Below are positions 33,982 through 63,551 of a stretch of 64,000 nucleotides of DNA, piece by piece (within the stretch, counting starts at the first letter, position 1; each line of letters begins with the position of its first letter). The notes beneath the pieces were generated by a model that had not been told where the DNA came from, ran no database searches, and saw nothing but the letters and a program-made list of their open reading frames with translations. The stretch is taken from the NCBI GenBank assembly GCA_001787755.1, contig MFYJ01000011.1, positions 1-64,000 on the forward strand, given 5' to 3'. The position numbers were made by a program, and so were the translations under genes. This stretch comes from Candidatus Peribacteria bacterium RIFOXYB1_FULL_54_35. Lineage in GTDB: Bacteria > Patescibacteriota > Gracilibacteria > Peribacterales > Peribacteraceae.

Positions 33982-36111
33982 ATGGGTATTCTTTGGGTGA
34001 TGGACGAATTCCGCCTGAAGAAAGCAGAGACACTCCGCAAAAAGGGCACCCCCCCCTATGCGGCAACATTTGACCGCACTCACATGCTGGGAGAAGGGCG
34101 AAACCTGAGTGACGGAACCAAGATCCGCGCCGCCGGGCGCGTGATGCTCTTCCGGGAGATGGGCGGGATGATCTTCGCAACCCTGCAGGACCATACCGGC
34201 CGTCTGCAGGTAGCGTGGAAAGCGGATGAAATTCCGGAGGAAGAGTTCAGAAATGTTCTGGAGTTCGTGGACCTCGGAGACATCATCGGCATCTCCGGCG
34301 AGCGCTTCACCACGAAGAAAGGCGAACCAACTATTCTTGTGAAAGAATGGACCATGCTCTCCAAGGCTCTCCGCCAGCCTCCGGAGAAGTGGCATGGCAT
34401 CGCCGACCAGGAGACAGCCTGGCGGCAGCGGTACCTGGATCTCATGAGCAACCGGGAGACGTATGACCGCTTCCTCTTCCGAAGCTTATTTCTCAGGCGG
34501 TTGCGTGAATTCTACTGGGCACACGATTTCATAGAGGTAGAAACGCCCGTCCTCACCAATGCGGCCTCCGGCGCTCTTGCTACTCCGTTCGTCACACACC
34601 ACAAAGGGTACGATCTGGATGTCTTCCTGCGCATTGCCGCAGGGGAGACATTCCAGAAGGAATGCCTTGTCGGCGGGTTTGACCGCACGTTCGAAGTGGC
34701 ACGCTGCTTCCGGAACGAAGGGCTCGATCCCAGTCACCTCCAGGACTTCACGATGGTGGAGCACTACGCTGCATACTGGGACTACGAGCAGAACATGGCA
34801 TTCACGGAAGAAATGCTCAGTATAATCCTCAAAGATCTGATGGGAACGACAAAGCTCCAGATCCCCAACCGCGAGGGGAAGCTTCTGGCAGTGGATTTTA
34901 AGCCGCCATGGCCGCGCGCGAGCATCGCGGAACTGATTCAGCACGACTGTGGCATAGATATTCGTTCCACCGCAACAGCGGATGACCTCCGGAAAGAAAT
35001 CACCCGGAAGAAGATCCACCTGGAAGTGGATATTGCCTCACTCGAACGCGGAAATCTGATCGACCAGCTCTACAAGAAAGTAAGCCGCCCGAAGATCGTG
35101 CAACCGACCTTCCTCACGAACCACCCCACCGATCTCTCCCCGCTCGCACGGCTCAATGACGATGATCCGGCCATCACCGACCGGTTCCAGCTGGTGGTAG
35201 GCGGATGGGAGATTGTGAATGCGTACTCCGAGCTCATTGATCCTGTGGACCAGGCACGGCGCTTTGAGGAGCAGGCGAAAGCACGCGCAAAGGGTGACAC
35301 GGAAGCACACCGAAAAGATGATGAGTTTGTGAAGGCACTGGAGTACGGCTGCCCGCCGTGTTCCGGTCTCGGCATGGGCATAGACCGTATTGTTGCCCTG
35401 CTCACACGACAGACAAACCTGCGCGATGTTGTGCTTTTCCCACTCATGAAACCTCTGCAGAAGGAACCGAATGGATCTGGTACAATTCCCTCCTCGTCCT
35501 CTCCACACACTATGTCAGACATTCCCCTGCTCCAGCATGCCGACTATGGCCACATGCTTCCTGCAGCGCATGGCCTCCTCAAAGCCCACGCTCTGCAGAC
35601 CCATGCCCACCTCATCGCGACTGGTGCCGCAATGGAAGCCTTCGCAAAGAAATTTGGGGGGCATCCCGAGACATGGAAAGTCGCAGGAATGCTGCATGAC
35701 TTGGACTGGGACAAACTCGATAAAGATTTTGAGCAACACTGCGGAAAACCCCTTGAGGAAATGCTCCGTACCGTTGAAGCACCGCAGGAGCTCCTCGCAG
35801 ATATCCGCGCACACTACGCAGAGAAATACGGCGCGGAATACCCTCTCAACTCGATGCTCCGGAAGTGCCTCTACTGCGTCGATGAACTCACGGGGTTCAT
35901 CATTGCCGTTGCACTCGTCCGTCCAAGTAAAAAACTTGCAGATGTGGAAGTGAAGAGCGTGAAGAAGAAACTCAAGGAAAAATCCTTTGCCGCACAGGTG
36001 AGACGCGAGCAGATCATGGCATGTGAGGAGATGCTCAAGATGCCCCTAGATGAGTTCATCGCGCTCACGCTGGATGCCATGAAGAAGGTTGCTGGTGAAC
36101 TGGGGCTCTAG
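33982..36111 (+). CDS. lysS: Lysyl-tRNA synthetase fused to an HD-domain protein
   Basis: 709 aa. Residues about 1-495: class II LysRS with OB-fold anticodon domain (AAGRVMLFREMGGMIFATLQD), motif 2 FRNEGLDPSHLQDFTMVEHY, and motif 3 GLGMGIDRIVALL ending LRDVVLFPLMKP, where the family normally stops. A Ser/Pro linker (about 496-510) leads in frame to MSDIPLLQHADYGHML (residue 511), an HD hydrolase with GMLHDLDWDKL. A TGGTACAAT extended -10 and a CT-rich leader precede that Met, so the HD protein (199 aa) may also be made separately. ATG 34000 is an alternative start. Confidence 0.9.
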   Translation: MGILWVMDEFRLKKAETLRKKGTPPYAATFDRTHMLGEGRNLSDGTKIRAAGRVMLFREMGGMIFATLQDHTGRLQVAWKADEIPEEEFRNVLEFVDLGDIIGISGERFTTKKGEPTILVKEWTMLSKALRQPPEKWHGIADQETAWRQRYLDLMSNRETYDRFLFRSLFLRRLREFYWAHDFIEVETPVLTNAASGALATPFVTHHKGYDLDVFLRIAAGETFQKECLVGGFDRTFEVARCFRNEGLDPSHLQDFTMVEHYAAYWDYEQNMAFTEEMLSIILKDLMGTTKLQIPNREGKLLAVDFKPPWPRASIAELIQHDCGIDIRSTATADDLRKEITRKKIHLEVDIASLERGNLIDQLYKKVSRPKIVQPTFLTNHPTDLSPLARLNDDDPAITDRFQLVVGGWEIVNAYSELIDPVDQARRFEEQAKARAKGDTEAHRKDDEFVKALEYGCPPCSGLGMGIDRIVALLTRQTNLRDVVLFPLMKPLQKEPNGSGTIPSSSSPHTMSDIPLLQHADYGHMLPAAHGLLKAHALQTHAHLIATGAAMEAFAKKFGGHPETWKVAGMLHDLDWDKLDKDFEQHCGKPLEEMLRTVEAPQELLADIRAHYAEKYGAEYPLNSMLRKCLYCVDELTGFIIAVALVRPSKKLADVEVKSVKKKLKEKSFAAQVRREQIMACEEMLKMPLDEFIALTLDAMKKVAGELGL
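35478..35486 (+). promoter_or_regulatory. Internal extended -10 before the HD-domain start codon
   Basis: TGGTACAAT within the linker-coding part of lysS, 26 nt before the in-frame ATG 35512. The downstream pyrimidine tract (CCCTCCTCGTCCTCTCC) resembles leaders of other genes in the window. It suggests that the linker was once an intergenic promoter region. Confidence 0.5.
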
Positions 36112-50205: not shown

Positions 50206-51606
50206 TTACACTTCTATCTCCTCCCCCCGCTCCGGCAGAGAAATGCCAAGATCACCCCGCACATGCTGCAGGCGTTCGGCAAACGGCTTCATCTGTTCTA
50301 TTTCTCCATGAACGAGGATGACCCTCTTCAGACCTTTTACACTGCAGACAAAATTATCGAGATCCGCCATATCCGCGTGGCCGGAGTATGCGTTAATGTA
50401 CACCGTCTTTGCCTTCTTCTCGTACACCTCCCCAAAGATCTTCACTTCAGAAATCTCGGGTTCCATGAGGCTGCGACCGAGCGTGTTCTCAGCCATGTAC
50501 CCTACCGCGACAATGGTATTGCGGACGTCCTCAAGGTTATTGCGCAGGTGGTGCCGAATGCGCCCGGCCTCGCACATCCCGGCACCTGCCATGATGACCA
50601 TAGGACCGGGAGTCCCATTGAGTTCCTTACTTTCCTCCGCACTCTCGGTGTACCTCACAAGTGAGAACTGGAACGGGTTGTGTGCCCTGGCTAAAAATTT
50701 CTCATACATGTCTTTGTCGTAGCACTCCGGATGCCTCATGAAGACACCCGTCACGCGTGAAGCGAGGGGCGAGTCGATGATAATGGGTACCGCAGGAATT
50801 TCCTTCGCATCCCACAGCACATGCAAGTCATAGACAATCTCCTGCGTCCTCTCGAGTGAGAAAGCAGGAATGATGATCTTTCCGCCGCGCTTTGACGTAC
50901 TGACTATAATCTCCTGGAGAGCATGCTTCGCCGTTTGAATGCCTTCATGCTCGCGGTTGCCGTACGTACTCTCACAGATGAGCGTTTCAACGGGTGGCAT
51001 ATCCGCCGGATCCCGGATGATTGGCAGCATGTTGCGCCCGAGATCGCCTGTAAAACCTACACGGTGCACTCTGCTGCCTTCCACAATTTCCAGCACAATC
51101 ATTGCAGCCCCCACGATGTGTCCTGCCTCAAGAAACTGCGCCTGCACTCCGTCGCAGACAGTAAACCACTCACCATAGTTCTGCCCCTGGAAGATCTCCA
51201 TGCAATCTATGGCATCCTGCTGCGTGTAGAGCGGCCCTTCGCACGCAAGCATCGTATCCGGCAGGTGCTTACGAAAGTATTCTTCGTCCTTCTCCTGAAT
51301 GTAGCCACTGTCCTGGAGCATCACATCAGCGAGATCCTTCGTTGCATAAGTACAGTACACCTTCCCTCTGTATCCCCTCTTGTAAAGCAATGGTATCCGG
51401 CCCACGTGGTCTGCGTGTGCATGGGAAAGGATCACAGCATCTATCTCCGCAGGCTCGAAAGAAAATTGCGAGTTCTTTGTGACAGCCTCTTTGCGATGCC
51501 CCTGGAAAAGCCCGCAGTCCAAAAGAATGCGCTTCCCGTTCGCAAGTTGAATTTCATGGCACGTGCCTGTCACCTCTCGTGCCGCACCATGGGAAATAAT
51601 CTTCAT
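50206..51606 (-). CDS. MBL-fold beta-CASP RNase/metallo-hydrolase
   Basis: 466 aa. HxHxDH metal motif SHAHADHVGRIP (about 57-68), further metal ligands VGFTGDLG and the C-terminal VHGE, beta-CASP inserts (SKRGGKIIIPAFSLERTQEIVYDL, IIIDSPLASRVTGVF, IMAGAGMCEAGRIRHHL, INAYSGHADMADLDNF). The domain plus the RNA-specificity end match COG1236-type (CPSF/YSH1-like) nucleases. No KH domains. Role in RNA turnover or processing inferred, possibly including rRNA. Confidence 0.93.
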   Translation of the reverse strand: MKIISHGAAREVTGTCHEIQLANGKRILLDCGLFQGHRKEAVTKNSQFSFEPAEIDAVILSHAHADHVGRIPLLYKRGYRGKVYCTYATKDLADVMLQDSGYIQEKDEEYFRKHLPDTMLACEGPLYTQQDAIDCMEIFQGQNYGEWFTVCDGVQAQFLEAGHIVGAAMIVLEIVEGSRVHRVGFTGDLGRNMLPIIRDPADMPPVETLICESTYGNREHEGIQTAKHALQEIIVSTSKRGGKIIIPAFSLERTQEIVYDLHVLWDAKEIPAVPIIIDSPLASRVTGVFMRHPECYDKDMYEKFLARAHNPFQFSLVRYTESAEESKELNGTPGPMVIMAGAGMCEAGRIRHHLRNNLEDVRNTIVAVGYMAENTLGRSLMEPEISEVKIFGEVYEKKAKTVYINAYSGHADMADLDNFVCSVKGLKRVILVHGEIEQMKPFAERLQHVRGDLGISLPERGEEIEV

Positions 51607-58804: not shown

Positions 58805-58971
58805 TTCTCCGATTCCCGGAGTCTTCCCACGAGAGAGAACTCTTCCTTTCGTCTTGCCCCTTACATTCCCGAAAAAAATTTCTACGACGAAAACCCACCC
58901 CCTGCGGGGCAGGCAACTTCTCCGAAGCACACGATATTGTCAGCGTACCTCGTGTTCTGTGAAGACATTGT
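58805..58971. other. Intergenic region between surface protein and 5S locus
   Basis: 167 nt. Contains CCCTGCGGGGCAGG (58910-58925), a stem that could terminate the minus-strand rRNA transcript (followed, in sense, by a weak T-run GGGTTTTCG), and an A-run AAAAAAATTT. No ORF or RNA gene recognised. Confidence 0.4.
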
Positions 58972-59113
58972 CTTGGCATCGACCTACTCTCGCACCCACA
59001 GGGGGCACTACCACCCCACACCACTCACTTCGTTCGGGTGCGGGGCAGGTCGGCGCTTGCCCTGCACCGGAGCGAAGCGACTGGTGCAGGGCTGGAGGGC
59101 TTAACTGCTGTGC
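58972..59113 (-). rRNA. 5S rRNA, split outer copy, 3' part with an internal insertion
   Basis: In sense the 3' part runs from CACAGCAGUUAAGCCCUCCAGC (near 59113) to GAGAGUAGGUCGAUGCCAAG (58972). Between CCAGC and GUGGUAGU it contains an extra block of about 72 nt forming two hairpins (CCUGCACC...GGUGCAGG and CCCCGCACC...GGUGUGGGG). Removing the block and joining to 59293-59332 yields a 110-nt 5S with a complete helix I (CUUGGUAUC / GAUGCCAAG). It is probably a disrupted copy, but the flanking arms suggest it might still fold. Confidence 0.8.
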
Positions 59114-59146
59114 CCGCCCCATACCAAGCGGCACAGAGTACAGGGT

Positions 59147-59259
59147 CCTGGCATCGACCTACTCTTGCACGATTGTATCGTACTACCATCGGCGCTGGTG
59201 GGCTTAACTGCTGTGTTCGGGATGGGAACAGGTGTAGCCCCACCGCTAGAGACACCAGG
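59147..59259 (-). rRNA. 5S ribosomal RNA, intact inner copy
   Basis: 113 nt on the minus strand, CCUGGUGUCUCUAGCGGUGG... to ...GAGUAGGUCGAUGCCAGG. Helix I CCUGGUGUC / GAUGCCAGG, loop C CCCAUCCCGAACACAGCAGUUAAGCCC, and loop E/helix IV GCCGAUGGUAGUACGAUACAAUCGUGCAAGAGUAGGUCGAU are all present. Flanked by complementary sequences AGAGUAUAGAGUCCUGG and CCAGGACCCUGUACUCU, which extend helix I. This is the functional candidate. Confidence 0.93.
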
Positions 59260-59292
59260 ACTCTATACTCTTGAGCTTTGGTACGGGGTGAA

Positions 59293-59332
59293 GGATGGGA
59301 ACAGGTGTACCCCCTCCACTGGAGATACCAAG
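59293..59332 (-). rRNA. 5S rRNA, split outer copy, 5' part
   Basis: 40 nt in sense: CUUGGUAUCUCCAGUGGAGGGGGUACACCUG..., ending UUCCCAUCC where the intact copy continues CGAACACAG. The break lies in loop C. Immediately after it come ACCCCGUACCAAAGC and later AGAGUAUAGAGUCC, which pair with GCUUGGUAUGGGG and the CCUGUACUCU on the other side of the inner 5S. Confidence 0.8.
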
Positions 59333-59370
59333 ACAATACCTTCAAAGATCAATAATCAATACGAGTGGGC

Positions 59371-59406: not shown

Positions 59407-59766
59407 ACCATGGAGTACGTGCGTCGCACGACTACATAGAAATAGGCCCTGTAGTGCAGGCAAACGCCTGGCCACAGGAAAAGAAAAAACGTTCAATCGC
59501 CCGTTCGTACCACTCAGCTTAACACGTTACCGTGCGTACACCTGTGGCCGATCTAACCGGTCGTCTTCCGGCGGGCTTATGGAGAAACGCTATCTCAGGA
59601 GGGGCTTCCCGCTTAGATGCCTTCAGCGGTTATCCTTGCCGAACATAGCTATCCTGCTTTGCCGCTGACGCGACAACAGGTACACCAGAGGTTCGTCCAC
59701 TCCGGTCCTCTCGTACTAGGAGCAGCTTCCTTCACGTTTCTAAATGACCACGGAGGATAGAGGCCA

Positions 59767-59808
<42 letters not shown>

Positions 59809-59824
59809 GATTGGCGAACAGCCA

Positions 59825-59871
<47 letters not shown>

Positions 59872-60161
59872 TACTTCATCCATACTTTCATATGGTGCAG
59901 ACTATATCTTTTTCCTGCAATCGATCGTAGGTTGTAAGTTTTACAACCAAAACCTGATTTAATGGAGCAGGAATCGGCGTGTTAGCCCTTAATGTAATAA
60001 GGACTCTCCCCTTTCGGGTCAGTCGTTACGGGGTCACCCCGCATGTGCGAGGGACTTCCCACGGTATTACCGGCGGGCACGCATTTTCACAATGCCCGTG
60101 ACGGTTCCACCGTTATAAGCCGAATTTTTGGTACAGGATCACTCCTGCAGCACCCCGATTG
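59872..60161 (-). other. Group I intron in 23S at about E. coli U2500 (peptidyl-transferase loop)
   Basis: 290 nt. Exons join as GGCACCU + CGAUGUCGGCUC. The 5' exon GCACCU pairs with the internal guide GGGUGC (U-G at the splice site). Core elements: R-like CGUAACGACUGACC (60030-60018) and S-like AAGAUAUAGUC (59910-59900), forming P7. No ORF. The base before CGAUG is A, not the usual terminal G, so the 3' junction is uncertain by one or two bases. Confidence 0.85.
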
Positions 60162-60735
60162 AGGTGCCAAACCGCTCCGTCGCTGTGGGCGCTTGGGAGC
60201 GATCAGCCTGTTATCCCTAGAGTAACTTTTATCCGTTGAGCGACACCCCACCCACGTGGAACGACACCAATAAATTAGTGTCAAGGTGCCGGATCACTAT
60301 CACCGACTTTCGTCTCTGCTCGGCCTGTAAGCCTCACAGTCAGGCCCACTTGTGCGATTACACGACGACGCCGATTTCCATCCGGCGCTAGTGGACCATT
60401 GCGCGCCTCCGTTACATTTTAGGAGGCAACCGCCCCAGTTAAACTACCCAGCAAACACTGTCCCCCGCTCTGTTTCAGAGACGAGGTGAGTACTGCCAGA
60501 ACGCAGAGGTGGTATCTCAAGGGTGGCTCCACGAGGGCTAGCGCCCCCGCTTCAAAGCCTCCCACCTATCCTGCATATGCAAACCGACAATACAATGTCA
60601 GCCTATAGTAAAGCTTCATAGGGTCTTTTCGTCCTTCCGTAGTCTACCCGGCATTTGCACCGGGATTGCAATTTCACCGAGCTCCGCGTCGAGACAGTGC
60701 TCAGACCGTTGTACCATTCGTGCGGGTCGGAACTT

Positions 60736-61204
60736 CAATTTCGTGAGAGACAAACCTATCCTTCGACAAGCTCAGGACAGGCTTATTTTCTCTCACGGGC
60801 TCTCTTTTCCCTTCAGTGGTGGCGCTCCAGACAGGCAGAGCCTGTCTTCGCGCATCATCTGATTTGGATAAGATCCCCCGTTCCACGTTCGTTTTTTAGC
60901 CATAGAACGATTTCTCTACACCCCATGTCGCCATGGGGATCGGACTCTATCATCATCCCACTTTACTCAAGTGAGCTCTGTGGGAGCATGGCGTATAGTC
61001 TCTGAGGATCCCTCTTACTTAAGGTTTCCTGCTGATTGTCCGCAGAAGTCACATTCTCACATACTAATTTTCCATTTTAATTAGTACGTAGTGCTCCATA
61101 CCCGGATGTTCCAGCATATAGCCACGTTTTGCACTGAATATGCCATTCACGGAATTCCCCAGTGCTCCCGCTTACGCGGGATTCGGGCAAGTTGCTTATC
61201 GACC
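60736..61204 (-). other. Group I intron in 23S at about E. coli U1951
   Basis: 469 nt. Exons join as UUGUCGGGU + AAGUUCCGACC, matching the bacterial consensus exactly. The 5' exon CGGGU pairs with guide GCCCG (U-G at the splice site) and the intron ends in G. R-like AGAGACUAUACG (61003-60992) and S-like GAUGAUAGAGUCCGA (60957-60940) form P7. No ORF. The 3' peripheral region carries the REP-like CCTTCGACAAGCTCAGGACAGG palindrome. Confidence 0.88.
60758..60785 (+). repeat. REP-like palindrome within the second 23S intron
   Basis: AACCTATCCTTCGACAAGCTCAGGACAGGCTT contains CCTTCGACAAGCTCAGGACAGG, which matches the core of the repeat found in the rplD tail and near 48180. In sense it forms a peripheral hairpin (CCUGUCC...GGAUAGG) in the 3' half of the intron. 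Confidence 0.7.
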
Positions 61205-61258
<54 letters not shown>

Positions 61259-62034
61259 TCAGGGCTTAGATCAAGGGCATACACCCTCTCACGTGACCTT
61301 CTGACACTGGGCAGGCATCAGCCCCTATACGTTGTCTTGCGACTTTGCAGGGACCTGTGTTTTTGGTAAACAGTCGCCTGAGCTCTTTTGCTGCGGGCCC
61401 TGTACCAGAAGGTACAGGGTCAGTCCTTATCCCGAAGTTACGGACGCTGTTTTGCCGAGTTCCTTAACGCGGAATTACTCGTTCGCCTTGGTCTACTCGA
61501 CCACCCCACCGGTGTTGGTTTGCGGTACGGTCTCACAAAACTCTCGAAGCGACGGTTTTCTTGGAAACAGAACCAGCCAGACTTATCCGCCAAAGGCGGA
61601 CATTTGGGATCCACGCTCAGCTCTCCTGACGGATTTGCCTGTCAGGATCAACGCTTCACGTGTTCCACGTGCAGTCAATACACACGCTCTGGTGCTCCCG
61701 CTCCGTTACGCCGCTTCTAGCGTACCACTCGCCTTTCTGGAGAACATGCACCCCACCGAAGTGGGATACAGAGGCTCTTAAGACTCTTGGGTGGTACTCT
61801 TGGGCGATTTTTATGAGGTACAGGAATATTTACCTGTTGTCCATCGGTTACGCCTTTCGGCCTCACCTTAGGCCCGACTAACCCCACGCCGATTGCCGTT
61901 ACGTGGGAAACCTTGGGGATTCGGCGGGCAGGGTTTTCACCTGCCTAGTAGTTACTCATGCCAACATTCTCACTTCCGTCCGCTCCACCCCGTCTCGCGA
62001 CGAAGCTTCACTGCTGAACGGAACGCTCCTCTAC

Positions 62035-62263
62035 AATGTATGGGGTCGCTTCTGGCTTCGGGAATCCTAAGAGATATATTTCCAGTCCTTGAGAAGCTTT
62101 TAGCTTGTTAGCTTCATTAGCTGATTAGGGATCTGGTTTTTTTAGATATGATCCCTTGTTTCCCTTTCTAACGCAGCTAATGAAGCTATAAACCTAATAA
62201 GCTCCAAAGGAACAAGGACAATAAATCCCAGCTCCACAGAATCCAAAAGTGACCCCACACATT
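62035..62263 (-). other. Helix-45 extension in 23S rRNA
   Basis: Inserted between GAAGCAGUG and GUAGAGGAGCGUUC of domain II. The base is a long stem AAUGUGUGGGGUC (62263 inward) with GACCCCAUACAUU (62035 inward). It carries within it dispersed hairpin H6 (about 62096-62205), whose arms consist of AGCTTNNTT units. It could be excised by a double-strand RNase, leaving a fragmented 23S. Confidence 0.85.
62096..62205. repeat. Hairpin element H6 inside the 23S gene
   Basis: Left arm TTTAGCTTGTTAGCTTCATTAGCTGATTAGGGATC, right arm GCAGCTAATGAAGCTATAAACCTAATAAGCT. The AGCTTGTT and AGCTTCATT units match H5 (19153-19272) upstream of the rpsE stop, linking the rRNA insertion to the intergenic element family. 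Confidence 0.85.
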
Positions 62264-62345
62264 CACTGCTTCGGTTGTCCGTTTTGCCCCGTTGAATTTT
62301 CGGCGCATAAATGCAATAGACCAGTGAGCTGTTACGCTTTCTTTA

Positions 62346-62376
<31 letters not shown>

Positions 62377-63551
62377 TTGTCCATGCATCTACACCTCCTT
62401 CTACACTGAACGGACATTTGGGACCTTAGCAAATGATCTGGGCTCTTTCCCTTTCGACGATGGCGCTTTGCCGTCACCGTCTCACTCCCGTCTCCTAAGG
62501 ATGGGTATTCGGAGTTTGCCAGGATTTGGCAGGTCGAGGTGACCCCCGCATCCAAACAGTAGCTCTACCCCCCATCTTGCGAGACGAGGCTGCCCCTAAA
62601 GGCATTTCGAGGAGAACCAGCTATCTCCGGGTTCGATAGGCTTTTCACCCCTACCCACAGGTCATCCCTAAGTCTTGTGACACTTAATGGTTCGGGCCTC
62701 CAGACGTCTTCCGACGCCCTTCACCCTGCCCATGGGTAGCTCACCCGGTTTCGGGTCTAGTGCCAGCGACTATGTACGCCTTATTTAAGACTCGCTTTCG
62801 CTCTGGCTCCGGCTAACTCTGCCTTAACCAGCCACTGACAACTAACTCGTTGGCTCATTATGCAAAAGGCACGCGGTCACCCCGCAACAAGTGCAGGGCT
62901 CCCACTCCTTGAACGCAATACATTTCAGGGTCTATTTCATCCCCCTTCCGGGGTACTTTTCACCGTTCCCTCGCGGTACTATTCACTATAGATCTCTGTA
63001 CCTGTTTAGGCTTGGGTAGTGGTCCACCCAGATTCAGGCCGGATTTCACGTGTCCGACCCTACTCAGGGACACCCTACCGTGTTTCTACATTTCGGCTAC
63101 GGGGCTCTCACCCACTTTGGCCGCCCGTTCCAGGGTCGTTCGTCTATGCAGAAACAATCGGATATTGGGGCCCTACAACCCCCCACCAATAAAACAGTGG
63201 GGTTTGGCCTGTTCCCATTTCGCTCGCCACTACTTTGGGAATCTCTATTGATTTCTTTTCCTCTGCTACTGAGATGTTTCAGTTGTCAGAGTAACCTCCC
63301 TGTACCTTACGGTTCAGGGTCATCTCCCATAACGGAGATGGAGTTTCCTCATTCGGAAATCCCCGGCTATAGCGCCTGCCTAGCGGCTTACCGAGGCTTA
63401 TCGCAGCTGGCCACGTCCTTCTTCGGAGTACAGAGTCGAGGCATCCATGTAATGCGTATGAGTAACGTTTTTTCTTGCCCTGAAGTCATGCAAAGCATGT
63501 GCTTCGGGGCTTCCTACCACACAGTACGTGCTTGCGCACGGCTGCGTGATT

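Follow-up and report, generated by a model that had tools for sequence, protein, structure and literature searches.

A complete 5S rRNA gene lies inside loop C of a second, split 5S rRNA gene in a genome of the Peribacteraceae (CPR/Patescibacteria), and the same plan is found in a genome of another genus, STB_179. The explanation that best accounts for the whole of the evidence, and that we regard as fairly probable, is that a working inner 5S unit was inserted into loop C of an outer 5S that is now dead, and that it would be cut out of a rod-shaped transcript with two stems.

Anatomy of the nested locus

The nest is encoded on the minus strand of the window, the 64,000-nucleotide stretch of DNA analysed here, at the usual 5S site downstream of the 23S rRNA gene (59484-63471, -). 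In sense order, the 5' part of the outer 5S (59332-59293) is followed by the complete inner 5S (59259-59146) and then by the 3' part of the outer 5S (59112-58971), with linkers separating the inner gene from both outer parts (Table 1). A first-pass annotation had claimed this order, and it is borne out by the sequence, by the Rfam match of the inner copy and by blastn matches of the outer copy. The inner gene matches RF00001 above the gathering threshold over model positions 1-120 (92.8 bits, E 9.6e-19), and a search of its genome, which is 97.85% complete, finds it to be the sole 5S match above threshold. Neither outer half matches RF00001, even at E<=10; as the model is blind to these halves, their identity as 5S is taken from family sequence. 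Three blastn matches, in correct order and strand, connect the outer pieces to the inner 5S, with E-values of 1.5e-7 (42 nt, 85.7%), 2.7e-4 (26 nt, 92%) and 0.003 (22 nt, 95%), and the outer 5S fits the family alignment end to end with CGAA in loop C (E. coli positions 43-46) as its sole gap. The break previously placed in loop C is indeed there, with the loss confined to CGAA and the outer 3' end at 58971 rather than 58972.

The outer halves have a private helix I (CUUGG/CCAAG, versus CCUGG/CCAGG in the inner copy), past which their pairing runs for a further 11-12 bp (GAAGGUAUUGU / ACAAUGUCUUC). Because the outer breakpoints do not overlap and the outer halves have this private helix I, insertion is the better reading of the locus. 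The first-pass statement that a tandem duplication cannot give such an order goes too far, since three tandem 5S copies, the first without its 3' half and the third without its 5' half, could in principle produce it, and partial repeats of the 5S 3' end do occur downstream of 5S in three family loci (L058, L083 and L089). We nevertheless consider such a history very improbable: in helix I and flank each outer half complements the other, the two differ from the inner unit, together they cover a single 5S without overlap and with a loss of only 4 nt, and the same plan is seen again in a second genus. In the three loci mentioned, the extra partial copies comprise the 5S 3' end together with the sequence that follows it, downstream of an intact 5S, which would suggest that local duplication recurs at the 5S locus within the family.

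The 3' part of the outer copy contains two hairpins of opposite orientation, which could also pair with each other and which flank the outer copy's own GCGCCGA. What had been described as a 72-nt two-hairpin insertion does consist of two hairpins, split by this outer segment and not forming one unique insertion. Both belong to a palindromic repeat, CCCYGYACC...GGTRCRGGGCAAG, that recurs in many relatives, where it often lies between 23S and 5S (examples are at 59014-59090 of the window and in L097, L098, L010, L014, L071 and L080), and the connector CCCCGUACC/GGUAUGGGG is probably a member of the same repeat. Like REP elements, the hairpins are interspersed palindromic repeats; a Y1 transposase (RAYT/REP) was considered as their mover and rejected, as PF01797 has no match in the window genome or STB_179. 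Intron models have no match within the nest. The group I intron core model RF00028 matches the 23S gene only, and both nested genomes carry a group I intron in their 23S rRNA (window 60921-61199, -; STB_179, L195 2996-3253).

Table 1. Features of the nested 5S rRNA locus in the window, in sense order on the minus strand.
Feature	Position	Strand	Evidence and remarks
Outer precursor stem, 5' strand GAAGGUAUUGU	59333..59343	-	Pairs with 58961-58971; fold p 0.91-1.0; 21/21 pairs including helix I
Outer 5S, 5' part: helices I, II, III 5' and loop C to CCCAUCC (E. coli-like positions <=42)	59293..59332	-	blastn E 1.5e-7; family alignment
Connector, 5' arm CCCCGUACCAAAGC	59275..59288	-	Partner 59117-59129 (p 0.62-1.0); similar to an arm of the family palindromic repeat
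Inner precursor stem, 5' strand AGAGUAUAGAGU	59260..59271	-	11/12 positions paired
Inner complete 5S rRNA gene	59146..59259	-	RF00001 92.8 bits; 0/58 conserved columns violated
Inner precursor stem, 3' strand CCCUGUACUCU	59135..59145	-	Flank pairing and fold
Connector, 3' arm GCUUGGUAUGGGG	59117..59129	-	Fold
Outer 5S, loop C remainder, helix III 3' and helix II 3' CACAGCAGTTAAGCCCTCCAGC	59091..59112	-	95% identity to the matching inner stretch
Palindromic hairpin element 1 of the outer copy	59057..59090	-	Family-wide repeat; perfect 30/30 match in G006; matches in many relatives
Outer 5S, helix V 5' strand GCGCCGA	59050..59056	-	Family alignment
Palindromic hairpin element 2, opposite orientation	59014..59049	-	Site of insertion (E. 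coli A73/U74) shared with STB_179 (L068)
Outer 5S, 3' part: loop E, helix IV, helix V 3', helix I 3'	58971..59013	-	blastn and family alignment
Outer precursor stem, 3' strand CAAUGUCUUC	58961..58970	-	Stem pairing and fold

Occurrence and history of nested 5S genes

Among related genomes, the same nested plan was found in STB_179 (G096; locus L068/L131), which belongs to another genus and was assembled independently: on contig JAQTSD010000020.1 (27,044 bases), loop C of one 5S contains another 5S in full. The nest points of the two genomes fall within 1-2 nt of each other in loop C, and the linkers and hairpins differ. Here too the single RF00001 match is the inner copy (90.4 bits). The outer copy of STB_179 has three hairpins, one of which stands between GCCGA and TGGTAG with site and orientation exactly as in the window. 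The contig carries an rpoC-like gene with 97% identity to that of the genus mate G014 and therefore belongs to the STB_179 genome. Since the same plan recurs in a second, independently assembled genus, an assembly error is unlikely. The named relatives are metagenome assemblies, and the STB_179 contig has a coverage of about 4; an artefact of assembly or binning is nonetheless scarcely credible when two separate assemblies give one plan in different sequence with complementary linkers, on contigs of 238 kb (window genome) and 27 kb, the latter tied to its genome by the rpoC-like gene.

Nests are rare. 5S is present in 58 of the 74 family genomes and nested in two of these 58, the window genome and STB_179; the remaining 5S-bearing genomes have one ordinary 5S each within the stretches examined, and in G001 and G002, from the same genus as the window genome, it occupies the same site after the 23S. 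Fifteen of the 16 family genomes without a 5S match also have no match to the 23S 3' end and one (G025) has a partial match, so that rRNA is largely absent from those bins. Of 353 genomes screened class-wide by pattern, at least 146 contained the 5S 5' motif, and two such motifs in close succession (73 and 120 nt apart) occurred only in the two nested genomes among the matches listed. Scanning 84,980 GTDB r220 genomes with an exact pattern, which nests with other spacings would escape, gave no further nest of the same spacing: of 34 matches only L131, the same contig as L068, is nested, and the rest are either unrelated DNA or ordinary 5S genes that happen to be preceded by CCCATC. A phage collection yielded ordinary 5S matches only, and the nested pattern was not found in viral contigs.

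The rpoC-like gene served as species marker, LysRS having given only a weak partial match in STB_179. The rpoC-like protein tree, whose row for G020 represents a wrong reading frame, places the window genome together with G002 and G001 and at a great distance from STB_179. Two origins are favoured by this species tree and by the dissimilarity of the inner copies, linkers and most hairpins. Alternatively, the nest was transferred between lineages as a unit, with the window's outer copy coming from a relative in the G087/G013/g13 group and wrapping a native inner 5S, a course of events that we deem unlikely but of some weight. It would accommodate the hairpin shared in site and orientation by both outer copies, the near-coincident nest points and the two changes that the rpoC-like tree requires for the nested state. 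Furthermore, the fewest differences separate the window's outer copy from G087 (9/110) and its inner copy from G002 (11/114), a split kept in 90% of bootstrap trees, and the similar outer flank GAAGGYAUUGU is consistent with transfer or with shared descent of the outer copy. Against transfer, the 5S tree is poorly resolved with few columns, the inner copies, linkers and most hairpins differ between the nests, and the 23S 3' end of the window genome follows vertical descent, being closest to G001 (96.7%). The 114 nt of a 5S carry too little signal to decide between two origins and transfer. As a separate observation on the synthetase, the LysRS of the window (33982-36111, +; 709 aa) has about 200 extra C-terminal residues, and this stretch matches a separate reading frame of about 200 aa in G013, G072, G094 and G030.

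Conservation, precursor stem and processing

Over 55 ordinary family 5S sequences, 58 columns are conserved at >=95%. The inner copies of both nests break none of them. The window's outer 5S breaks five (the four deleted in CGAA and one substitution) and that of STB_179 breaks 13, all by deletion; CGAA of loop C is missing from both, and STB_179 also lacks the 3' strands of helices III and II. Position 42-43 of 5S contacts uL5, and an insert there would clash (PMC7812874). With conserved columns broken and this contact presumably blocked, the outer copy would most likely be dead as a ribosomal 5S, in agreement with the earlier suggestion of a pseudogene and with the inner copy alone scoring above threshold, and the inner 5S would most likely be the one in use, freed from a precursor stem that is doubly nested. 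What remains of the outer copies is barely decayed: their retained conserved columns show one change only, and helix I, loop E, helix IV and the precursor stem are intact in both genomes. Such preservation would point to a fairly young event or to continued constraint, and the outer copy may have arisen more recently than supposed or may still be under selection.

The same preservation bears on the possibility that the outer 5S is still functional, the inner one being excised like an rRNA intervening sequence and the halves staying together as a two-piece 5S, with two kinds of ribosome or a role in assembly as the outcome. Intervening sequences of other rRNAs are known to be excised by RNase III. 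Expanded 5S rRNA can also occur in ribosomes, as that of Halococcus morrhuae does (PMC7530397). In keeping with functional expanded 5S rRNAs, the insert forms its own helix, made of connector and inner stem with most pairs at p>0.9, but the core is not intact, with 5 and 13 conserved columns broken. Given the absence of CGAA from both outer copies, the further losses in STB_179, the poor pairing of outer helix II with its own 3' strand (see below) and the intact 5S sitting inside, we judge a functional outer 5S improbable. A broader version, in which both 5S RNAs are processed, a matured outer 5S-like RNA (two-piece or expanded) acts in ribosomes or their assembly, and the nest is heritable and has spread between lineages, is in our view quite improbable as well.

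Ordinary 5S units of the family have a flanking stem that extends a median of 12.5 bp beyond helix I, against a 95% limit of 4 for shuffled sequence. Flank pairs are formed in 595 of 648 cases (91.8%), compared with 62.6% (maximum 68.4%) after random exchange of 3' flanks between genomes, and most stem positions show several pair types, that is, covariation across the family. Two flank pairs are near-invariant in the family loci (L004-L094), A-U at -10 (56/58) and Y-G at -6 (54/58), and may constitute a processing signal. All four units of the two nests, inner and outer, carry the family precursor stem, and in both outer copies 21/21 stem pairs form, including pairs changed on both sides between the genomes. 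In thermodynamic folding, the window nest is predicted to adopt a single rod (-198.5 kcal/mol, z -7.4) and the STB_179 nest reaches -229.6 kcal/mol (z -9.7); this fold and the recurrence of the plan in STB_179 lend support to the long rod-like precursor proposed in the first-pass annotation. Both helices I and both flanks have predicted pair probabilities close to 1, with the exception of one A-C mismatch in the inner flank. The 5' strand of outer helix II is predicted to pair mostly with the linker (GUGGAGG/CCUUCAC; most pairs at p about 0.7) and with its own 3' strand at p about 0.16. A local substitute for helix II is common to both nests, with chance odds of 5-8% each, and any meaning it may have is only suggestive.

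The enzymes that usually mature 5S rRNA are RNase E/G and RNase M5. In the four genomes tested (the window genome, STB_179, G001 and G002), RNase E/G gave no significant match, and RNase M5 gave one match in the window genome, at 20.6 bits versus a cutoff of 110.65, and none in the other three; each of the four has an RNase III gene, which in the window genome lies at C10:13050-13700. Retention of RNase J, RNase III and PNPase has been reported for CPR bacteria (PMC12641178). With RNase III present and RNase E/G and RNase M5 not found, RNase III would be the natural candidate for cutting the stem. The window also encodes a beta-CASP metallo-ribonuclease (50206-51606, -) that is nearer to archaeal aCPSF1 and NF045584 than expected for a bacterium; its score against NF045584, a type VII CRISPR protein model, is 382 bits, below the cut-off of 800.

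On the preferred reading, a working 5S within a dead one, a complete 5S unit with its own 11-bp precursor stem would have been inserted into loop C of an older 5S standing at the normal site after the 23S. The inner copy would then have become the working 5S, and the outer one, with loop C broken and hairpin repeats inserted, would have died as a ribosomal 5S, its helix I and precursor stem still folding around the inner unit. The transcript would form a single rod with two processing stems in series, of which the outer is perhaps cut first; the inner 5S would be freed by cuts at its own stem, as in the family's ordinary single genes, most plausibly by RNase III, and the outer pieces would be discarded. 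The first-pass annotation had suggested that the outer copy could be a processing scaffold or that 5S could be released from a dsRNA-like precursor. Both are conceivable, and as the precursor stem is common to nearly all ordinary family 5S units, cutting in a long stem would be the family norm and not specific to the nest.

Significance and relation to known systems

Few RNAs are as constrained as 5S rRNA, and a genome whose only intact 5S lies inside another tests how far maturation depends on the precursor stem. The covarying 21-bp pre-5S stem, found together with RNase III where RNase E/G and RNase M5 were not found, makes the question of the enzyme testable. If the inner copy is the working one, ribosome assembly would depend on cutting a good 5S out of a broken 5S. 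Standard annotation shows the inner gene only, so that nested loci are overlooked, and surveys that discard internal duplications would lose them.

A literature search limited to open-licence papers found no earlier report of a 5S within a 5S, and the nested arrangement appears not to have been described before. Interrupted 5S as such is already known; new here is an interrupted 5S whose insert would itself be the working 5S. Expanded 5S rRNAs have inserts of 13-109 nt, up to three per gene, in five orders (Stepanov & Fox 2021, PMC7812874), identified in a screen that threw out sequences with internal duplication. As in these RNAs, a 5S is interrupted by base-paired extra sequence, and loop C is among the known sites. 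However, the known inserts are not 5S and keep the core, whereas here the insert is a whole 5S unit and conserved loop C residues are gone, and Patescibacteria are not among the orders listed. The same study describes 5S pseudogene remnants at operon ends, which resemble the nest in that a broken 5S with inserts lies beside a working 5S; those remnants stand downstream of a normal gene, each after a putative terminator, whereas here the remnant surrounds the gene taken to be working. The rRNA genes of CPR bacteria often carry insertions, and none of >=100 bp was seen in 645 CPR 5S genes (Tsurumaki et al. 2024, PMC11270868). The group I introns in the 23S of both nested genomes conform to this pattern; unlike the 5S genes of that survey, a 5S here holds a whole-5S insert, without an intron-model match. 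Finally, the nest resembles rRNA intervening sequences in its hairpin-like insert, its long flanking stem and its occurrence in a lineage with RNase III, but the functional molecule here would be the insert and not the host RNA.
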